A DNA stretch of 53,704 nucleotides, taken from Treponema sp. GTDB taxonomy: Bacteria; Spirochaetota; Spirochaetia; Treponematales; Breznakiellaceae. Below the pieces are notes generated by a model, which was not told the origin of the DNA, made no database searches, and worked only from the letters and a program-made list of their open reading frames with translations. A program made the translations under genes and the position numbers. The stretch covers positions 2,040 through 55,743 of the forward strand of contig WQSW01000008.1 of NCBI GenBank assembly GCA_009787695.1, given 5' to 3'. This document shows positions 10,815-50,708 of this stretch, piece by piece. The first letter of the stretch is position 1. Each line of letters begins with the position of its first letter.

Positions 10815-11405
10815 TTAATTATCTGACCTACTTAGTAAGAACAGGAAGAACAGCGTAACAAGATCGATTTTACCGCCTATGTAATATCTATGCATCCCGT
10901 TAATATTGCGGTATCCAACCTCTGCAGAAAAAACATTGTAATTTACTCTGCCGATATTCAATCTGAAACCTATGTGGGCACCGGCGGAAAAAATATATTT
11001 ATCCCAGTGAAAATTCTCATCTACAAATATATAATTGATTGATGCATACGGACCTATATAAAAATTACTTCCGCCGTTAAAATAATGGTTAAGAAGATTC
11101 CAATAAATTTTTAAATTGAAAAGACTTATATTGTCTGCCTCAAACATATTTTCACTGTCTTGATATTCATTGGTTGACCACCCAAAAGCATAAAAAGGGC
11201 TGAATTCAGCTCCAAGGTTTGTAACAGTATTGTCTATCCCTACACTTATCAGTGATAAAATAAACTCTCCGTTATAATTATTACGAGCCGGTAAATTTGC
11301 CCCAAAACCAAGATTTCCGATATTAAAATTGAAAACATTTTCTCCAATTTGCGCAAAACCGGGAATTGCAACAAGAATCATAATAATCAACAGAAAATAT
11401 TTCAT
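10815..11405 (-). CDS. Secreted/outer-membrane beta-barrel-like protein
   Basis: Signal peptide MKYFLLIIMILVAIPGFAQ; beta-rich with alternating Tyr/Phe; start moved from track 11441 to the ATG at 11405. Confidence 0.65.
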   Translation of the reverse strand: MKYFLLIIMILVAIPGFAQIGENVFNFNIGNLGFGANLPARNNYNGEFILSLISVGIDNTVTNLGAEFSPFYAFGWSTNEYQDSENMFEADNISLFNLKIYWNLLNHYFNGGSNFYIGPYASINYIFVDENFHWDKYIFSAGAHIGFRLNIGRVNYNVFSAEVGYRNINGMHRYYIGGKIDLVTLFFLFLLSRSDN

Positions 11406-11499
11406 ATTATCATTATATACAAAAATGCTGATAAAAACCAATTTTTACAGCTTTTTTTATCTTTTATAAAGCAGAAAAAAACAGTAAATTAAAAATGAT

Positions 11500-12296: not shown

Positions 12297-12315
12297 TATT
12301 CAACACGGAGGTATT

Positions 12316-12897
12316 ATGAAAAAGTTTCTTATTTTAGGATTTCTTATTGCGATTGCATTAACCTCAGTTAATGCACAGGGACTTTATTTTGATGCAGGGA
12401 TTGGTGTAGGCTTACCCACAACAAAATTGAGCGGAACAAAGGTTTCTTTTTCTTCAGCAAATTTTACAGAAATTGGTTATGATTTAGGGTTAAAAGTTGG
12501 TTTTGGACCTATTGTGGGTCTTCCGCTTTACGCAGTTGGAGCATTTGGTTTTACCGGACACAGATTTTCTGATTCTGCTAATGATCATATTACATTTAAT
12601 TCCTTTCTTCTCGGGGGGGGGGTAATTTTCTATCCAATTCCGCTTATTCAAGTTGCCGGCTCTATCGGTTATTCATTTGTTGCAAATGATACATCAATAC
12701 CGGGATTTACTTTTTATAAAAGTGAAGGCGGGTTTGCATACGAAGTTTCTGTAGCAGCCGATCTGGGTTTTGGAAATTCAGGTATATTATTGGGAGCAAA
12801 ATATTTCGGCGCTATTAATACTTTAGAAACTTCTAAAGTTAAGCAAGATCAATCTTATATAGGTGTTTTTGTCAGATATGCTTTAAGGAACAAATAA
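12316..12897 (+). CDS. Outer-membrane beta-barrel-like protein, contains in-frame poly-G tract
   Basis: Signal peptide MKKFLILGFLIAIALTSVNAQ, SD ACGGAGG, beta-barrel-like body, C-terminal 'GVFVRYALRNK'. Confidence 0.8.
   Translation: MKKFLILGFLIAIALTSVNAQGLYFDAGIGVGLPTTKLSGTKVSFSSANFTEIGYDLGLKVGFGPIVGLPLYAVGAFGFTGHRFSDSANDHITFNSFLLGGGVIFYPIPLIQVAGSIGYSFVANDTSIPGFTFYKSEGGFAYEVSVAADLGFGNSGILLGAKYFGAINTLETSKVKQDQSYIGVFVRYALRNK
12613..12622 (+). repeat. Homopolymer G10 tract inside CDS
   Basis: CTTCTCGGGGGGGGGGTAATTTTC read directly. Confidence 0.95.
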
Positions 12898-39423: not shown

Positions 39424-40440
39424 GTGAAAACTATTTTTGTTGTGGACGATAACAATGTAAATTTGGTTTCAGCAGACGAGGCTTTGTCAAAGCATTACCG
39501 TATTTTTACTTTACCTTCCGCTGCCAGTATGTTTGAACTTTTAGAAGATATAAGACCGGACCTGATCTTATTGGATATTTTAATGCCCGATATGGACGGT
39601 TTTGAAACATTAAAACAATTAAAAGAAACAATCCATTTAGCCGACATTCCTGTTATTTTTCTTACAAGCAGAACCGATGCATCAACAGAAGCGCTTGGTT
39701 TTGAAATGGGAGTTGTTGATTTTATTTCCAAACCTTTCTCAAGACCGGTTTTATTAAATCGTATAAAAATCCATTTGGGAATTGAAGATATAATTCATGA
39801 ACGCACAGACAGTTTGATGAAATTAAAAAACGGTATTTTATCAGTTTTGGCTAACATGGTTGAAAACCGCGACGGTATTACAGGCAAACACATTGAGCGC
39901 ACAACATATTTTATCAGATTGCTTCTTAAAGTAATGATAGAAAAAAAAGTTTATTTTGATGAAATATCGCAATGGGATTTAGAGCTGGCGATTTCTTCTG
40001 CGCGTCTGCATGATATCGGGAAAATTACCATAACAGATTTAATTTTAAACAAGCCAGGAAATTTATCTGTAGATGAATTTGATACGATAAAAACCCATGT
40101 TGCAGAAGGCGAAAGAATAATCGACAGGATTATGGAAGAATCAGGTGACGAAGCGTTTTTGCAATATGCAAAATTATTTGCTGGTTATCATCATGAAAAA
40201 TGGGACGGGTCAGGTTATCCTTACGGATTAAACGGCGAAAATATTCCGCTTCAAGGGCGCATCATGGCGATAGCAGATGTTTACGATGCGCTTGTTTCCA
40301 AGCGTTCTTATAAACCTGCGCTTTCACATGCAGAAGCTGTAGATATTATCCTTAAAAACAGCGGGAAGCATTTTGATCCTGATTTGATAAAAGTATTTTT
40401 GTTATGCGAAAAAGATTTTGAAAAAGCAGGCAGTGAATGA
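39424..40440 (+). CDS. Response regulator with REC and HD-GYP domains
   Basis: 'TIFVVDDNNVNL', 'LLDILMPDMDG'; 'HDIGKITI', 'GYHHEKWDGSGYPYGL', 'IADVYDALVSKRSYKP'. Confidence 0.95.
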   Translation: MKTIFVVDDNNVNLVSADEALSKHYRIFTLPSAASMFELLEDIRPDLILLDILMPDMDGFETLKQLKETIHLADIPVIFLTSRTDASTEALGFEMGVVDFISKPFSRPVLLNRIKIHLGIEDIIHERTDSLMKLKNGILSVLANMVENRDGITGKHIERTTYFIRLLLKVMIEKKVYFDEISQWDLELAISSARLHDIGKITITDLILNKPGNLSVDEFDTIKTHVAEGERIIDRIMEESGDEAFLQYAKLFAGYHHEKWDGSGYPYGLNGENIPLQGRIMAIADVYDALVSKRSYKPALSHAEAVDIILKNSGKHFDPDLIKVFLLCEKDFEKAGSE

Positions 40441-43400
40441 AGCGGTTGTTAAAGAATTGCAGAATTCTTTTTTTCTTTTTATTTATTTTATGCCTTGCAG
40501 GGTGTGTTAAAAAAACAGAAGAAATTCATTTATCTCCGATTCAAACATTTCAATCATATATAGATATTCCCGGTATAACAAACGAGGAAATTGCTGCCAT
40601 AAAGTTATTGCAAAAAAATCACGCTTCTTTTAATTACGGAGTGATTCATTCAACAGAAGCGTTTATAAAAAATGACGGCAGATTCGGAGGTTATTCTTCG
40701 TTGTTATGCGAATTACTGTCAAATCTTTTCGGGATTCCTTTTAATCTTAAAATATTCAACTCGAATGATTTACTGGATAAATTAGATTCAGGGGAGATTG
40801 ATTTTTCCGGTAATATGATGACCAGCGAAGAATATTTAAAAAAATATATAATGTCCGACACAATTGCAGAACGGCAATTTGTAAGGATCAGACTGGAAAG
40901 CAGCCCCTCTGTTGAACAAATTCAAGAGAAGCGCAAGGTAAAATATGCGTTTGCCGCTGACACGCCGATAGAAGACGCTGTCGGGGCTGTGATCGGAAGA
41001 GATTCATATGAACCTGTAATGGTAGATAATTATTCGCAAGCATATCAAGTTCTTGAAAACGGAGAAGCAGACGCTTACATTGCGTCAAGTGTTAATGCCG
41101 TTGCATTTATTGATTACGATGATATAATCATCGAAGATTTTTTCCCTTTAATTTTTAATCCGGTATCAATGGCGGCTGCAAAACAATCTTTGCAGCCGAT
41201 AATTTCTGTTTTTACAAAAGCTTTGCGGAACGGCATGATGCCGTATTTAAATAAATTATATAATCAGGGATACAAAGATTATTTAAAACATAAAATGTCT
41301 GTGTGGCTTACAAATGATGAGCGTGTTTATATTAATAAAATGACTGCACAAAATAATTCAATCCCTATTGCAGCCTACAACAGCAATTACCCGCTTAGTT
41401 TTTATAATATACGCGAAAGAGAATGGCAGGGTATTTATTTTGATTTATTAGAAGAAGTAAAATTACTTACGGGGCTTAATTTTAATGTTGCACATGATGA
41501 GTTTACCGGATTTCTTGTTATAAATGAAATGCTTTTAAGCGGAAAAGCTGTTTTAATTCCTGAGTTGATTTGGAAAAAAGAAAGGGAAGAATTATATATT
41601 TGGTCTGATAATGTTATTTTAAATGATCATTATGCGCTTGCTTCAAAAATAGAGCATTCTAATATCACACTGAATGATATCTTGCATGAAAGAATCGGTC
41701 TTGCAAGAAATACAATTCATGCTGAAATGTTTATGCAATGGTTTCCAAACCACATGAATATTGTTCAATACGATTCCATAGATGATGCTTTTAAAGGTTT
41801 ACAGAATAATGAAGTAGACATGGTTATGACAACGCAAAGAAGGCTTTTGCAGATAACGCATTTTATGGAAAATCCGGGTTATAAGGCAAATATTATTTTT
41901 AACCAGCCTATAGAAACCAGATTTGTTTTTAATAAGAATCAATCTATTTTACGTTCTATTATTGAAAAAGCGTTAAAATTAACCAATGTTGACGGGATTG
42001 CAGTACAATGGACGCAGAGAACCTATGATTACCGCACAAAAGTAATAGAAGCGCAAAGACCGCTGATGTTAGGTGCAATCATTTTATTCAGTTTAATTTT
42101 AATTTTAGCAACAATTATTTTTATTGTAAGTAAAGTTCAGTCAATTAAATTAAAAAAAGATCATGAGCGTACCAGAGTTATGCTGGATACACTTCCTATG
42201 GCATGCTTTATTGGAAATGCGGACGGATCGATCTACGATTGCAATACCGAAGCAGTGCGGCTTTTTGAATTAAAAAACAAAAAGGAATTTATCGATAATT
42301 TTAAAAAACTTTCGCCGGAATATCAGCCCGACGGGCGAAAATCAATTGATGCGACACTTAATAACGGGTTTATGGCAATGAAAGACGGTAAATATGTTTT
42401 TAATTGGACGCATCAATTACTGGATAAAACTCAAATCCCTACAGTTGTCACACTTGAATCTGTTGTTTACAGAAATGAAAAAGTCCTGATAGCTTATGTC
42501 CGCGATATACGCGAGCAAAGAAAAATGATGGGAGAGATCGAGAGGCAAAACGAACTTTTTAAAGCGGTGAACAGTGTGTCATCAATTTTGCTTGATCCGG
42601 ATATTCAAAACTTTGATGATAATTTAATAATATCGATGGGTATTTTAGCGAAAGCAGTGGATGTCGATCGTGTATGTATATGGAAAAATCATAAAAAAGA
42701 CGGGAGGCTGTGCTGCACCTTAACTTACGATTGGGTAAGCAGTTTCCGTCCGCCTGTGTTAGGTGAATATTACGAAGAAGCGTTTTATGATGAAACCTTG
42801 CCGGGTTGGGAAGAAATTCTTTCTCAGGGGAAATGTATTAATAACCTTGTTCGTGATTTATCTGCTGCTGAGCAAATGATGTTTAAGGCAATAAGAGTTT
42901 TATCAGTTTTTATTGCACCTGTGTTTGTACACGATTTATTCTGGGGTTTTGTCGGCTTTGATAATTGCCATAATGAGCGTGCATTCACGGATAATGAAAG
43001 TATGATTATGCGCTCTTCAGGACGCATGATCGCTAATGCATTTATCCGTAACGGTATGACCCAAAATCTTCTTGATATTACAACAAAGCTGGAAGCAGCG
43101 GTAGATAAGGCAAATGAAGCGAACACAATTAAAACAAAATCGCTTAACTCTCTTGAGCGTATACTTGATAGTATAGATGCGTTTATTTATGTAACTGTTC
43201 CCGGTACAGGCGAATTGCTTTTTGTTAATAAAAAAATGAAAAAAACGTTTAACATTGAGCATGATGATATTGTCGGGAAGTATTGTTACAAAGTTTTCGG
43301 AAGGAACACCGATCAGATGTGCGATTTTTGTCCGTGCTTTCAGCTTAATTATGAGCCGGATAAGATCATCGTTTGGGATGAATATGCTGATGTTCTTGAT

Positions 43401-45347
43401 CGTTATATCCGTCATGCAGATTGCTATATTGATTGGCCCAGTGGCGAAAAAGTTCATTTGCAGCATGCTGTTGATATTACAGAATTGCTTGTTGCAAAAG
43501 AACAAGCCGAACAAAGCAGCCGTTACAAAAGCGCATTCCTTGCAACAGTGAGTCATGAGATACGCACTCCGATGAACTCAATTTTAGGTATAGCGGAAAT
43601 CCAGCTGCAAGATGAAGACCTTCGTCCGGAAACAGAAGATGCGTTTAGTAAAATATATGAGTCAGGCGATTTGCTGCTTAATATTATTAATGACATTCTT
43701 GATCTTTCAAAAATCGAAGCCGGTAAATTAGAAATCGCTCCTGTCAGATACGATATAACAAGTTTAATTAATGATACCGCCCAATTAAATTGCCTGCGTT
43801 ATGAAAGCAAGCCGATATTATTCAGCGTTCAAATTGATGAAAACACTCCTCTTGAATTATTCGGTGATGAGCTTCGTATTAAACAAGTGTTGAATAACGT
43901 TCTTTCTAATGCGTTTAAATATACCGATGAAGGCGAAGTTGTTTTTACAGTTAGCTCTGAAATTACTTCAGAAGTGCAAACTGTTTTAACTGCACAAACA
44001 CATGATAATGTTGTGCTTGTTTTTAAAGTCAGCGATACAGGGCATGGGATGTCGGATAAACAAATTAAAAAACTTTTTGATGAGTATACACGCTTTGATA
44101 CTGATGCTAACCGTACTACAGTCGGCACAGGTCTTGGTATGAATATTACAAAACGTCTTGTTGATTTAATGGACGGAAACATTATTGTAAAGAGCGATCC
44201 GGGAAAAGGTTCTGTGTTTACGGTGAGCATTCCGCAAAAACGTATCGGCACATTTGTCTGCGGTCCAACATTCGCCGATGATTTGAGAAATTTCCGTTTT
44301 AAAACAGGTACAATCAAGAAAAAAACACAATTTTTGCGGGAATATATGCCTTACGGAAATGTTCTTGTCGTTGATGATGTTGAGTCAAATATTTATGTTA
44401 CCAAAGGTTTATTATTGCCATACGGTTTAAATATAGAGACAGCAACAAACGGGTTTGAAGCAATTGAAAAAATAAAAAACGGCAATGTATACGACATTGT
44501 ATTCATGGATCATATGATGCCTAAAATGGACGGCATAGAAGCAACAAAAATTATCCGCAATATGGGATACACCAATACAATAATTGCATTAACCGCCAAT
44601 GCTCTGATAGGACGGGCTGAGATGTTCCTTAGAAACGGATTTGACAGTTTTATTTCTAAACCGATTGATTCGCGCGAGCTAAATCTTTTATTAAATGATT
44701 ATATAAGAAATAAAAAACCGCCTGAAATTGTTAATGCAGCACGGCGTGAACAAAAAGAAAAAAACTCAAAAACTGCACAAACAAAATTTGCAGTTTTTGA
44801 AAATATTAAAAGTGTATTTGAAAAAGATGCGTTTTTTGTACAAGACGCGGAAAATGCAATAACAGTACTCAGCAATTTATATAAAATAATAGATAACATA
44901 GAAGACGATGAGTTAAAATTGTATATCACTACGGTTCATGGAATGAAAAGCGCTCTTTCCAACATCGGCGAAAAAGATTTGTCTGCCAATGCATATAAAT
45001 TGGAAAGAGCGGGCGACGAAAAGAATTTCTCTGTTATAGCAAACGAAACTCCTATCTTTATAGCTGATCTTAAAACTTTAACAGAGAAATTAAAACCGGA
45101 AGATAAAGATAGTGATATAGAATTAAAAGAAGAAGATAAAGTTTATTTACGGGAAAAAATCACATTAATAAAAACTGCTTGTGAATCCTTTGATAATAAT
45201 ACTGCAAAAGAAGTCTTAGAAGATTTAAAAAAGAAAGAATGGACAAGGCAAATAAATCAAATTTTAAGTGAAATTACAGTGCATATTTTACACAGCGCGT
45301 TTAAGAAAGCTGTGGCTGCAGCGGAAAATTTAATTACTATGATTTAA
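40437..45347 (+). CDS. Hybrid sensor histidine kinase: lipobox-like N-terminus, two SBP_bac_3-like domains, TM, PAS, GAF, Cys-rich PAS, HisKA, HATPase, REC, HPt
   Basis: H-box 'SHEIRTPMNSILG', N/G boxes, REC 'FMDHMMPKMDG', HPt 'HGMKSALSNIG'; ATGA overlap with upstream HD-GYP gene. Confidence 0.93.
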   Translation: MKRLLKNCRILFFFLFILCLAGCVKKTEEIHLSPIQTFQSYIDIPGITNEEIAAIKLLQKNHASFNYGVIHSTEAFIKNDGRFGGYSSLLCELLSNLFGIPFNLKIFNSNDLLDKLDSGEIDFSGNMMTSEEYLKKYIMSDTIAERQFVRIRLESSPSVEQIQEKRKVKYAFAADTPIEDAVGAVIGRDSYEPVMVDNYSQAYQVLENGEADAYIASSVNAVAFIDYDDIIIEDFFPLIFNPVSMAAAKQSLQPIISVFTKALRNGMMPYLNKLYNQGYKDYLKHKMSVWLTNDERVYINKMTAQNNSIPIAAYNSNYPLSFYNIREREWQGIYFDLLEEVKLLTGLNFNVAHDEFTGFLVINEMLLSGKAVLIPELIWKKEREELYIWSDNVILNDHYALASKIEHSNITLNDILHERIGLARNTIHAEMFMQWFPNHMNIVQYDSIDDAFKGLQNNEVDMVMTTQRRLLQITHFMENPGYKANIIFNQPIETRFVFNKNQSILRSIIEKALKLTNVDGIAVQWTQRTYDYRTKVIEAQRPLMLGAIILFSLILILATIIFIVSKVQSIKLKKDHERTRVMLDTLPMACFIGNADGSIYDCNTEAVRLFELKNKKEFIDNFKKLSPEYQPDGRKSIDATLNNGFMAMKDGKYVFNWTHQLLDKTQIPTVVTLESVVYRNEKVLIAYVRDIREQRKMMGEIERQNELFKAVNSVSSILLDPDIQNFDDNLIISMGILAKAVDVDRVCIWKNHKKDGRLCCTLTYDWVSSFRPPVLGEYYEEAFYDETLPGWEEILSQGKCINNLVRDLSAAEQMMFKAIRVLSVFIAPVFVHDLFWGFVGFDNCHNERAFTDNESMIMRSSGRMIANAFIRNGMTQNLLDITTKLEAAVDKANEANTIKTKSLNSLERILDSIDAFIYVTVPGTGELLFVNKKMKKTFNIEHDDIVGKYCYKVFGRNTDQMCDFCPCFQLNYEPDKIIVWDEYADVLDRYIRHADCYIDWPSGEKVHLQHAVDITELLVAKEQAEQSSRYKSAFLATVSHEIRTPMNSILGIAEIQLQDEDLRPETEDAFSKIYESGDLLLNIINDILDLSKIEAGKLEIAPVRYDITSLINDTAQLNCLRYESKPILFSVQIDENTPLELFGDELRIKQVLNNVLSNAFKYTDEGEVVFTVSSEITSEVQTVLTAQTHDNVVLVFKVSDTGHGMSDKQIKKLFDEYTRFDTDANRTTVGTGLGMNITKRLVDLMDGNIIVKSDPGKGSVFTVSIPQKRIGTFVCGPTFADDLRNFRFKTGTIKKKTQFLREYMPYGNVLVVDDVESNIYVTKGLLLPYGLNIETATNGFEAIEKIKNGNVYDIVFMDHMMPKMDGIEATKIIRNMGYTNTIIALTANALIGRAEMFLRNGFDSFISKPIDSRELNLLLNDYIRNKKPPEIVNAARREQKEKNSKTAQTKFAVFENIKSVFEKDAFFVQDAENAITVLSNLYKIIDNIEDDELKLYITTVHGMKSALSNIGEKDLSANAYKLERAGDEKNFSVIANETPIFIADLKTLTEKLKPEDKDSDIELKEEDKVYLREKITLIKTACESFDNNTAKEVLEDLKKKEWTRQINQILSEITVHILHSAFKKAVAAAENLITMI

Positions 45348-45401
45348 AATTATAAATTTAATTTTTAAATTTATAAATGCAAATTAGTAAACGGAGATAA
45401 C

Positions 45402-47897
45402 ATGACCGCTAGTATTATGCTCACTATTACAATGGTTTCATTATTATTATTTGTCACGATGGGATTATTATATTTCAGACTTATTGTTGAAAGAAGAGAA
45501 GTTAAAAATCGGGATATATTGCTTAATACAGTTAATGAAGTAGCTTCCCTTCTTTTAAGTTCAAAAACAAATCAATTTACCAGAGATATGAATTTTTGCA
45601 TGGGTTTAATTGCATCTGCTGTTAAAGTAGATCGCGTATATGTTTGGAAAAATGTAACAATAGATAATCAGTTATGTCACACGCAAGTTTATGAATGGTC
45701 GGAAGGCGCAAAACCGATGCAAGGACATGAAAGCACAATAAATATGCCGTATGATAATGTTCCGGGCTGGAAAGAAAAACTTTCTTGCGGATATTGCATC
45801 AACGGTATTGTGCGTGATATGACTCCAAAAGAGCAAGAAATATTTGTCCCGCATGATATAATCTCAATTTTAATTGTACCTGTTTTTGTAGATGATCAAT
45901 TCTGGGGTTTTGTCGGTTATGATGATTGTCATAAAGAACGTCATTTTTCTATAAACGAAGAAGCAATTTTACGCTCAGGCAGTTTACTTATCGCGCACGC
46001 CTTAGTCCGTAACGAGATGACAGAAAACCTTTGGGATTCAACCGCGCAAATGGAACAAGCTTTAGATGAAGCACGCAGCGCTAATGAAGCCAAGTCTAAT
46101 TTTCTTGCAACAATGAGTCATGAAATACGCACTCCGATGAATTCGATTATAGGAATAGCGGAAATTCACCTGCAAGACGGTAATCTTAACCCTGACATGA
46201 ATGAAGCGTTTAACAAAATATATGAGTCAGGTGATATGCTTCTTAAAATTATAAACGACATTTTGGATATTTCTAAAATAGAAGCGGGTAAACTGGAGCT
46301 TAACCCTATTAAATACGATGTCCCAAGTTTAATTAACGATACCGCTCAATTAAATTGTTTGCGTTATGAAAGTAAGCCTATATTATTTACTATCAATGCA
46401 GATGAAAACACTCCCAATGATTTAATAGGCGATGAACTTCGCATCAAACAAATTTTAAATAATATTTTATCCAATGCGTTTAAATACACAGATGAAGGAA
46501 AAGTTGATTTTTCTGTAACAAGCGAAAGAAAAATTGTAAACAATGAGTTAGGTGATGAAGTAATGATTGTTTTCTGTGTTAAAGATACTGGTCAAGGTAT
46601 GACGCAAGATCAAATAGGAAAACTTTTCAATGAGTTCACGCGATTTAATATTGAAAATAATCGTACAACTGTAGGTACAGGATTAGGTTTAAGTATTACA
46701 AAACGCCTTGTTGATTTAATGAACGGAAGTATCATTGTAGAAAGCGAACTTGGCAGAGGAACGAGTATAACAGTTTACATTCCGCAAAAACGCATAGGTA
46801 CTGATGTATGCGGTCCTGAAATTGCAGAAAAATTGCGTAATTTCCGTTTTGAAAGTGCTGCGTTTAAAAAGAAAATGCAATTTTCGCGTGAATATATGCC
46901 TTACGGGAATGTTCTTGTTGTTGATGATGTTGTCTCAAATATTTATGTTACTAAAGGAATGCTAAAACCTTACGGATTGAATATCGATACTGTTTTCAGC
47001 GGCTTTGAAGCGATTGATAAAATAAAAAACGGCAATAAGTATGATATTGTTTTTATGGATCATATGATGCCCAGAATGGACGGTATTGAAGCGACAAAAA
47101 TAATTCGCGGTATGGGATATACAAAAACGATAATTGCACTTACTGCCAATGCATTAATCGGACGAGAACATATGTTTTTACAAAACGGTTTTGACGGTTT
47201 TATTTCCAAACCGATAGACTCGCGTGAATTAAATCTTGTGCTGATAGAATTTATTAAAAATAAAAAACCTCCTGAAATTATTGAAGCTGCAAAACAAGAA
47301 CGTGCAAAACATCTTACTAATGAAGATGCAAACTTCGTTTGTGCTTCCAAAGAGTCAAGCAGCGAAATGGAAAAATGTTTTGTACAAGATGCAGAAGAAG
47401 CCATTAATGTTTTGGAAAAACTGGGAGAAAGTTATGCTGAGTATAACGAAGAAGAAAAAAAGCTTTATACAACTACCGTTCATGGAATGAAAAGCGTTCT
47501 TGCCAATCTTGGTAAAAAGGATTTATCTGCAATTGCAGCAATACTTGAACTTGCCGGAGAAGAAAATAACACAGCATTAATGCAAAGAGAAACCGCATTT
47601 TTTAAGTTATCGCTTAAAATAATGATTGAAGAATTTAAAAAGAAAAAAGAAAGCAAAGAAGAAATTGAAAATATCTCTGATGAAGATATAGTTTATTTAA
47701 ATGAAAAAATACAATTAATTAAACAAGCTTGTGCAAATATTGATAAAAATGCGGTAAAAGAAGTATTGGATAGTTTAAAACAAAAAAAATGGACTAGCCG
47801 AATTAATAAAGTATTAGATGAAATATCTTTGCATATATTACATAGTGCTTTTAAAAAAGCTATAGCAGTAGCAGAGCTATTCTTAAACCCTAATTAA
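45402..47897 (+). CDS. Hybrid sensor histidine kinase: TM, GAF, HisKA, HATPase, REC, HPt
   Basis: 'SHEIRTPMNSIIG', 'FMDHMMPRMDG', 'HGMKSVLANLG'; paralogous to flanking kinases. Confidence 0.93.
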   Translation: MTASIMLTITMVSLLLFVTMGLLYFRLIVERREVKNRDILLNTVNEVASLLLSSKTNQFTRDMNFCMGLIASAVKVDRVYVWKNVTIDNQLCHTQVYEWSEGAKPMQGHESTINMPYDNVPGWKEKLSCGYCINGIVRDMTPKEQEIFVPHDIISILIVPVFVDDQFWGFVGYDDCHKERHFSINEEAILRSGSLLIAHALVRNEMTENLWDSTAQMEQALDEARSANEAKSNFLATMSHEIRTPMNSIIGIAEIHLQDGNLNPDMNEAFNKIYESGDMLLKIINDILDISKIEAGKLELNPIKYDVPSLINDTAQLNCLRYESKPILFTINADENTPNDLIGDELRIKQILNNILSNAFKYTDEGKVDFSVTSERKIVNNELGDEVMIVFCVKDTGQGMTQDQIGKLFNEFTRFNIENNRTTVGTGLGLSITKRLVDLMNGSIIVESELGRGTSITVYIPQKRIGTDVCGPEIAEKLRNFRFESAAFKKKMQFSREYMPYGNVLVVDDVVSNIYVTKGMLKPYGLNIDTVFSGFEAIDKIKNGNKYDIVFMDHMMPRMDGIEATKIIRGMGYTKTIIALTANALIGREHMFLQNGFDGFISKPIDSRELNLVLIEFIKNKKPPEIIEAAKQERAKHLTNEDANFVCASKESSSEMEKCFVQDAEEAINVLEKLGESYAEYNEEEKKLYTTTVHGMKSVLANLGKKDLSAIAAILELAGEENNTALMQRETAFFKLSLKIMIEEFKKKKESKEEIENISDEDIVYLNEKIQLIKQACANIDKNAVKEVLDSLKQKKWTSRINKVLDEISLHILHSAFKKAIAVAELFLNPN

Positions 47898-47927
47898 ATA
47901 GTATGATATAAAAAGGCGGGTAAGTAT

Positions 47928-50708
47928 GTGAAACAAAAATCAATATTTCTCAAAATAAGAAAATATACAGGGCTTATTGTTGCTATCGTAGTAGTATCGT
48001 TTACTGCGATTATGGGAGTAGGATTGTATGTCTTAAGAGAAAATGTAGTAAGTACAAGCACATTTTTGGGACGCACAGCAGTAACCGAAGCAAAACATGC
48101 AATGTTAAAACATATTAAAGACTATGATTCTATCGAAGCAGAGGAAATAATAACTACAACATTTGATATAGAACAAGATATTAATAATTTAACAAAATCA
48201 ATAATAGAAGCTATTAATTTAGTGTTTGTTACTATTATTATAATTTCGCTGATCGTAATCGGTATTGTTATTATTTCTGTCTATTTTATTTCCAAACGGC
48301 TTGCAAAAAGCATAACACAGCCTATTCAGAAATTAACAGACGGTGCAGAATTAATTAGCAGCGGAAAGATAGATCATATTTTAGAAGTTAATACCGGAAA
48401 CGAAATGGATAAACTGGCAGCAACTTTTAATACAATGATCTTAAGTTTAAAAGAATTGTCTGCCGAAAAAAATAAAGCGGTTGAAGAAAAAGAATCGTTG
48501 GTTATCTTTGAAAATATATTAAACGGATTAGATGTAATGATATACATTACAGATCCTAAAACAAGTAAGATTCTCTTTATGAATAAAAATATGAGAATAC
48601 ATTACAACATAACAGGTGATTGTGTCGGAGAATTATGTTATGAAATTTTACAAAAAGATTTTACCGAAAGATGCAGTTTCTGTCCTTGTTTTAAATTGGA
48701 TATAGACCCTTATAGAGCGATCATATGGGAAGAACACAGCTCCTTAACAAAACGTATTTACCGGAATATAGACAGATATATAAGATGGCCTAACGGACAG
48801 ATGGTTCATATGCAGAATTCTGTTGATATGACAGAACTAATAGAAGCAAAAGAATATGCTGAACAATCAAGCCGTTATAAAAGCGCGTTTTTAGCAACAA
48901 TGAGCCATGAGATTCGCACTCCCATGAACTCTATACTTGGCATTGCAGAAATACAATTACAAAATACAAATCTTTCCGAAGAAGCAGAAGAAGCGTTCGA
49001 AAAAATACATGAATCCGGTGATATGCTGCTTAACATTATTAACGACATCCTCGATCTTTCAAAAATTGAAGCAGGTAAAATGGAATTGACTGTTGCCAAG
49101 TATGATATTCCCAGCTTGATTAATGATACAGCGCAATTAAATTGTTTGCGTTATGAAAGCAAAGCGATACTTTTTAATCTTCAGGTAGAAGAAAACACGC
49201 CTCTTGAATTATACGGCGACGAACTTCGTATCAAACAAGTTTTGAATAACGTACTTTCCAATGCATTTAAATATACGGAAGAAGGAGAAATTGTTTTTAC
49301 AGTTTTCTCTGAACCTGCAGACTTAAATAGTTCGGATAACGATGATGAAATAACAATTGTTTTTTGCATAAGCGATACCGGCAGAGGTATGACGCAAGAT
49401 CAAATAGATCAATTATTTGATGAATATTCGCGTTTTAACACAGAAGCAAACAGAACAACAGAGGGCGCCGGATTAGGAATGAACATTGCAAAACGCCTGA
49501 TTGATTCGATGGACGGAAGCATTACTGTAGAAAGCGAATGTGAAAAAGGTTCTGTGTTCACTGTGCGTATACCGCAAAAAAAAGCAAGCGATGATGTATG
49601 CGGAAAAGAATTGATTGAAAAATTAAAAAATTTCCGTTATCAAAAATCATCGATAACAAAAAAGACGCAGTTCTTGCGTGAATATATGCCGTATGGCAGT
49701 GTTTTTGTAGTAGACGATGTAGAATCAAATATTTATGTTATTAAGGGAATGTTGCTGCCGTATGGTTTAAAAATAGATGTAGTAAGAAATGCGTTTGATG
49801 CAATTGATAAAATTAAAGCCGGCAGCGAATACGATATTATTTTTATGGATCACATGATGCCGAAAATGGACGGAATGGAGGCTACAAAAATAATACGCAA
49901 AATGGGTTATAAACATGCTATTGTTGCATTGACAGCGAACGCTTTATTAGGACGGGCAGAAATGTTTCTGCAAAACGGTTTTGACGGTTTTATTTCAAAG
50001 CCGATAGATTCACGGGAATTAAATCTATTGTTAAACGAGTTTATAAAAAATAAAAAACCGCCCGAAGTAGTAGAAGCGGCACGTCAGGAACAAAGAGAAA
50101 AACAAAATAAAAATATCGTTGTACAGCATACGAATGCTTTTGAAAAAGAGGCATTTTTTATTCAAGATGCAGAGAATGTGCTTCTTGTGCTGGAAGGTTT
50201 CGGCGATAAATTACTTGAGCTTGATAATAAAGAATTAAAATCCTATATAACCGCTGTTCATGGAATGAAAAGCGCTCTGGCAAATATTGGTGAAAAAGAT
50301 TTATCCGACGTTGCACTTAAATTAGAAAAAGAGGGAGAGAAAAATAATTTAAAATATCTTTCAACGGAAACTCCCGGTTTTATTAATGCACTGAAAGGAT
50401 TGATAGAAAAATACAGAATTGTTGATGATGAAGAAGAACACATTATAGAAATATCCAGCGAGGACGCTGTTTATTTACGTGAAAGATTAACTCAAATAAA
50501 AACAGCTTGCCAATCATTTGATAAAAACGGCGCAAAAGCAGCATTGGAAGATTTAAAAAAGAAAGAATGGCCCAAGCACATAAATGGCGTTATTCATAAC
50601 ATAGCAATGCATATTTTGCACAGCGCATTCAAAAAAGCTGCCGCTCTTGCAGAAAATTTTACATCAAGGGCTTCTCCTATTCGCGGGCATCATCAGGACG
50701 GCTGGTAA
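47928..50708 (+). CDS. Hybrid sensor histidine kinase: two TM, HAMP, Cys-rich PAS, HisKA, HATPase, REC, HPt
   Basis: GTG start; HAMP 'RLAKSITQPIQKLTDGAELISSG'; 'SHEIRTPMNSILG', 'FMDHMMPKMDG', 'HGMKSALANIG'. Confidence 0.93.
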   Translation: MKQKSIFLKIRKYTGLIVAIVVVSFTAIMGVGLYVLRENVVSTSTFLGRTAVTEAKHAMLKHIKDYDSIEAEEIITTTFDIEQDINNLTKSIIEAINLVFVTIIIISLIVIGIVIISVYFISKRLAKSITQPIQKLTDGAELISSGKIDHILEVNTGNEMDKLAATFNTMILSLKELSAEKNKAVEEKESLVIFENILNGLDVMIYITDPKTSKILFMNKNMRIHYNITGDCVGELCYEILQKDFTERCSFCPCFKLDIDPYRAIIWEEHSSLTKRIYRNIDRYIRWPNGQMVHMQNSVDMTELIEAKEYAEQSSRYKSAFLATMSHEIRTPMNSILGIAEIQLQNTNLSEEAEEAFEKIHESGDMLLNIINDILDLSKIEAGKMELTVAKYDIPSLINDTAQLNCLRYESKAILFNLQVEENTPLELYGDELRIKQVLNNVLSNAFKYTEEGEIVFTVFSEPADLNSSDNDDEITIVFCISDTGRGMTQDQIDQLFDEYSRFNTEANRTTEGAGLGMNIAKRLIDSMDGSITVESECEKGSVFTVRIPQKKASDDVCGKELIEKLKNFRYQKSSITKKTQFLREYMPYGSVFVVDDVESNIYVIKGMLLPYGLKIDVVRNAFDAIDKIKAGSEYDIIFMDHMMPKMDGMEATKIIRKMGYKHAIVALTANALLGRAEMFLQNGFDGFISKPIDSRELNLLLNEFIKNKKPPEVVEAARQEQREKQNKNIVVQHTNAFEKEAFFIQDAENVLLVLEGFGDKLLELDNKELKSYITAVHGMKSALANIGEKDLSDVALKLEKEGEKNNLKYLSTETPGFINALKGLIEKYRIVDDEEEHIIEISSEDAVYLRERLTQIKTACQSFDKNGAKAALEDLKKKEWPKHINGVIHNIAMHILHSAFKKAAALAENFTSRASPIRGHHQDGW

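Follow-up and report, generated by a model that had tools for sequence, protein, structure and literature searches.

Does the run of ten guanines in the middle of a small surface-protein gene of this treponeme act as an on/off length switch, or is it a by-product of the glycines that it encodes? This candidate slipped-strand switch lies at 12613-12622 on the forward strand of a 53.7-kb window (the whole stretch of DNA analyzed), in frame within the open reading frame (ORF) at 12316-12897. Re-reading the sequence gave a run of exactly ten G in the context CTC GGG GGG GGG GTA, such that the tract supplies codons 100-102 and the first base of the following GTA codon. An earlier note on this DNA had described the tract as a mid-gene G10 that is conspicuous in AT-rich surroundings, and both points hold: the G+C content of the window is 37%, a run census identified the tract as the only run of G or C longer than 6, the second-longest G run is 5, and G6-G9 runs are absent from the 53.7 kb. 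Computed from the sequence, G7 and G13 also preserve the 193-residue reading frame, while G9 and G11 yield products of 102 and 124 residues and G8 and G12 products of 123 and 103 residues. Both alternative frames stop within approximately 24 codons of the tract, and neither is long. The truncation after about 100 residues that the note had proposed for a change of one base is therefore roughly right, and G10, with the 193-residue ORF in frame, is the ON state in this assembly as it had stated. Contingency loci are defined by a tract whose length varies within a population or between strains, and are further recognized by a G or C homopolymer of at least 8-9 in an ORF or promoter, by loss of the product on gain or loss of one base, and by a gene of a typically surface-exposed class; here the further features take the form of an in-frame G10, a computed frameshift to an off product, and a signal peptide followed by a predicted eight-stranded outer membrane barrel.

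The barrel gene (12316-12897, forward strand) is preceded by a Shine-Dalgarno-like GGAGG at 12307-12311, 4 nt before the ATG, and begins with a predicted signal peptide, MKKFLILGFLIAIALTSVNA (12316-12375), read from the sequence and ending in an A-Q-G junction that is conserved in orthologues. AlphaFold modelled the protein with eight strands (pLDDT 83.8, pTM 0.75), and the best PDB matches to this model in Foldseek were OmpX, Ail, OmpA, and NspA (OmpX E = 3.6e-7, TMt 0.60), so that the predicted structure combines the eight antiparallel strands and the fold match that characterize OmpX/Ail-type barrels. In Pfam, PF13505 (OMP_b-brl) was matched below its curated cut-off (E = 0.002, 18.8 bits versus 28.7), and in NCBIfam the TDE1717-type family NF049866 gave only a weak match (19.2 versus a cut-off of 135). 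The protein is thus predicted to be an eight-stranded barrel with a signal peptide and an OmpX/Ail/NspA-like fold, which bears out the note's description of a signal peptide-bearing beta-barrel protein. Orthologues can be aligned to it over its whole length, and its relatives were found in Treponema and Spirochaetaceae metagenome-assembled genomes (MAGs), in agreement with a treponeme origin; the isolate names of these relatives read as termite-gut surveys, the database records themselves giving no habitat. The tract-encoded residues 100-102 lie inside predicted strand 4 (residues 91-108, 12586-12639), which bears a conserved G-x-G motif, and a truncated product with four of the eight strands would probably be unable to form a barrel. 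A second barrel-like ORF with a signal peptide, which has no convincing family matches, is found on the reverse strand at 10815-11441, two genes upstream of the G10 gene.

We favour the interpretation that G10 is a translational contingency tract that serves as a slipped-strand switch for the gene of a small surface barrel, and assign it a probability of about 0.57 on the basis of the anatomy of the locus and comparison with related genes. During replication the G run would gain or lose one base; cells with G10, G7, or G13 would make the barrel in frame, those with G9, G11, G8, or G12 would terminate translation after strand 4 of 8 and make no barrel, and the population would consist of a mixture of ON and OFF cells. 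This reading infers three things: real variation in the length of the tract, loss of function in the truncated product, and selection for switching. What makes an on/off length switch probable is the presence of similar G runs in the promoter or signal peptide of related genes.

How surprising the tract is depends on the scale considered. A dinucleotide model predicts 0.0055 G10 runs per window, and the genome's own run-length decay (23 G7 and 5 G8 runs), when extrapolated, predicts approximately 0.006 runs of at least 10 per window and 0.30 per genome; the tract is therefore locally conspicuous and genome-wide only mildly unexpected, and with approximately 0.3 internal runs of at least 10 G expected per genome, a single one is not extraordinary. 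This leaves room for the alternative, which we regard as unlikely, that a conserved Gly-Gly-Gly-Val stretch simply happens to be written with three GGG codons and forms a tract that may slip slightly, is unselected, and is perhaps transient. GGG makes up 10.4% of glycine codons and Gly-Gly-Gly-[GVADE] occurs approximately 8 times per 12,940 codons, from which roughly 0.6 all-GGG cases are expected per genome by extrapolation. In the alignment, G100 and G102 are invariant and the middle residue is usually G, P, or L, with mixed codons among the homologues, including relatives with three glycines at the same place (GGA GGC GGA in L030 and GGC GGC GGC in L237). The tract itself is missing from the other seven genus members that have this gene (0/7). 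As GGG accounts for about 10% of glycine codons and G-x-G is conserved, a chance choice of synonymous codons within a conserved strand could explain the tract. Against this, in orthologues the same gene bears long G tracts at other sites suited to a switch, the window has none of the intermediate G6-G9 runs, and coding G10 runs are inherently slippery. The designation of the tract as a phase-variation candidate thus stands in part: it gains from the orthologue tracts and loses from the conserved GxG motif that the tract encodes and from the unexceptional count of one internal G10 per genome.

Two orthologues carry long tracts of their own. In L075 (Cf509_bin6; 42-43% identity), a G12 at 995-1006 separates TTGAC from TATCAT, 100 nt ahead of the ATG of the orthologue, and leaves a 15-nt spacer at its present length. 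This promoter is a consensus match only, and it went uncalled by the default promoter scanner because the scanner demands a spacing of 16-18 nt. A G-rich spacer is also found at the corresponding place in L073 (TTGACA-GGGGGGAAGGGGGGAAGG-TATACC). In L237 (52% identity), a G14 falls in frame within the signal peptide, MKKIIVLLVLVLGGGGALSVSAQG, whose additional glycines are absent from the other orthologues. Among the 16 other orthologue-bearing genomes, two such tracts were seen versus approximately 0.2 expected (P ~0.017), the expectation being derived from each genome's own density of runs of at least 10 over a 750-nt promoter-plus-ORF region with the window tract excluded. Judged from these sequences, the orthologue tracts are the strongest new evidence in favour of a switch, and the barrel family appears to attract such G tracts.

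Long tracts recur in the genome from which the window derives (G000; 2.82 Mb, 115 contigs), where six runs of at least 10 were found versus 0.30 expected from the decay (P ~1e-6). Five of the six, G/C runs of 10-17, sit exactly at contig ends (C3:1-10, C34:1-17, C39:27485-27494, C41:26873-26884, and C50:1-13). As two contig ends may share one broken tract, the independent loci may number as few as four (P ~3e-4). A two-colour poly-G read-tail artefact was ruled out for C3, C39, and C50 by orientation, since G at the left ends of C3 and C50 and C at the right end of C39 are opposite to a poly-G read tail; such an artefact is a possible source of the C34 and C41 tracts. The C50 tract is in frame within a long Ig-like protein, the terminus of C39 reads RBS-MTIYCFDTEKEISI-CCC, and the C41 tract directly precedes the signal peptide of an outer membrane-type protein whose relatives begin near that point. 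C3 and C41 may represent one split-signal-peptide gene, as their sequences fit (MIRKNIPISIFKAY-C..-DIYFRHLVIFFSFFIVFSSPSGAQ), although the upstream neighbours of the relatives differ. The genes at the contig-end runs of this genome include those for an Ig-like surface protein, for an outer membrane-type protein, where the run adjoins the signal peptide, and for a lipoprotein approximately 150 nt downstream. A G9 at C3:47938 was dropped as a candidate, as by eye it resembles part of a terminator hairpin.

In related genomes, only through-assembled tracts were used for an enrichment analysis because many of the genus-wide runs of at least 9 lie within approximately 100 nt of contig ends and are followed by degraded sequence. 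The resulting set of 54 runs of at least 11 is a non-random sample, mostly from the same genus with some from sister families of the order. In thirteen of these, the run comes between an upstream start codon and a possible signal peptide, several of the 13 being weak cases, and in a further 16 a secreted or lipoprotein gene follows 50-216 nt downstream. Tracts splitting or preceding a signal peptide thus make up 29/54, versus 2/20 exact G8 controls (Fisher 6e-4) and 11/57 G6-8 runs in the same loci (Fisher 2e-4), a comparison in which both classes were defined after examples had been inspected. The enrichment is also post hoc in that a first, strict signal-peptide classifier gave 3 loci only and a relaxed rule was then used for tracts and controls alike. 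Ten split-signal loci were judged plausible, and in 6 of the 10 an otherwise intact long ORF is out of frame (OFF) as assembled. We conclude from these positions that, in these spirochaetes, long G/C tracts occur preferentially where exported proteins could be switched.

A recurrent design was observed in L134, L137, L138, L140, L142, and L174, in which a start codon is followed by 9-25 codons, a C/G tract of 13-31, and then a hydrophobic signal core, often with a lipobox and often out of frame (OFF) as assembled. The same start codon, 9-25 codons, and C/G tract occur at the contig ends L105, L110, L113, L114, and L133, which are cut at the tract. On the reverse strand of L090, a G11 forms the final part of the spacer in TTGACA-17 nt-TATCAT, 58 nt before a lipoprotein start. 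Mid-gene tracts were found in L157 (G21), L173 (G13), L048 (G11), and L059 (G16), and in-frame G11 tracts lie inside FkbM-methyltransferase-like ORFs, identified by eye, in L048 and L162; genes of this glycan-modifying type are phase-variable in Campylobacter. The window tract is atypical in that it lies mid-gene and its coding strand carries the G, whereas most long tracts in the relatives have C on the coding strand and lie at or upstream of signal peptides.

Signal-peptide repeat tracts are known from Neisseria pilC and opa and from Helicobacter hopZ. These resemble the in-frame G14 of L237 and the signal-peptide-splitting C/G tracts of the related genomes, although the proteins are unrelated and the window tract falls in strand 4 of the mature barrel. 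More tentatively, the comparisons suggest that in termite-gut treponemes one small outer membrane barrel family may have repeatedly gained poly-G switches that act at distinct mechanistic levels, with G12 in a promoter spacer, G14 in a signal peptide, and G10 within the barrel. The family may belong to a large phasome, as yet undescribed, made up of long C/G tracts within or ahead of the signal peptides of lipoproteins and outer membrane proteins, and present in gut symbionts rather than in the known pathogens.

Two further alternatives fare less well. In principle, the length of G10 would permit RNA polymerase to slip, so that transcriptional or ribosomal slippage could buffer or tune output by producing several frames from one DNA length, with DNA slippage of minor importance. 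We consider this highly improbable: RNA-level slippage could only lose product because G10 is already in frame, and neither of the other two frames is long. Least probable is a consensus or assembly error, in which the true length differs or the tract is a MAG assembly artefact, for while the degraded sequence after G/C runs at the relatives' contig ends indicates that poly-G sequencing trouble is present in these genomes, this contig continues through the tract, both flanks align full-length to orthologues, and the G10 is exactly in frame.

For the contingency-tract interpretation, the closest precedents come from the syphilis agent, and the earlier note was correct that poly-G control of surface genes is known in Treponema pallidum. 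TP0126, an OmpW homologue, is controlled by the length of a poly-G repeat, as summarized in a passage of PMC8407342 that cites Giacani 2015. Like the barrel studied here, TP0126 is a small eight-stranded treponeme outer membrane barrel with an associated poly-G, which lies upstream of the ORF as does the G12 of L075; in contrast, the window tract is inside the ORF and would act translationally rather than transcriptionally. The likeness is one of description: TP0126 is an OmpW homologue, whereas the best folds for the window protein are OmpX, Ail, OmpA, and NspA. In-ORF homopolymer indels with lengths differing between strains have been found in TP0127, TP0479, and TP0618 (PMC3373638), of which TP0479 was modelled as an eight-stranded barrel (PMC8407342). 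The homopolymer is in the ORF in these genes as in the window gene, but the indels were actually seen there and the window tract is known from one assembly. Of 17 tracts of at least 8 G tested in T. pallidum, 76% vary in length and four show minimal variation or none (PMC7864442), which provides both a fair prior for variation of G10 and a concrete non-varying fraction. Neisseria porA carries a poly-G in its promoter spacer (PMC7864442) and resembles L075, with its G12 between a -35-like TTGAC and a -10-like TATCAT, rather than the window gene; by analogy, a change in the length of the L075 tract would alter promoter spacing and not frame.

Poly-G phase variation in the syphilis agent is read as immune evasion, and the literature searched contained no report of poly-G switches in termite spirochaetes. 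If the barrels and lipoproteins of termite-gut symbionts are switched in this way, the selective force would have to lie outside adaptive immunity, for instance in phage, protist attachment, or niche heterogeneity, and treponeme phase variation would become testable outside a human pathogen. The tracts also offer a reason for the breaking of such MAGs at G/C runs, and a warning that surface genes are lost there. Elsewhere in the window, three large hybrid histidine kinases (HisKA, HATPase_c, Response_reg) lie in tandem at 40437-50708, the first with SBP_bac_3 and PAS domains.
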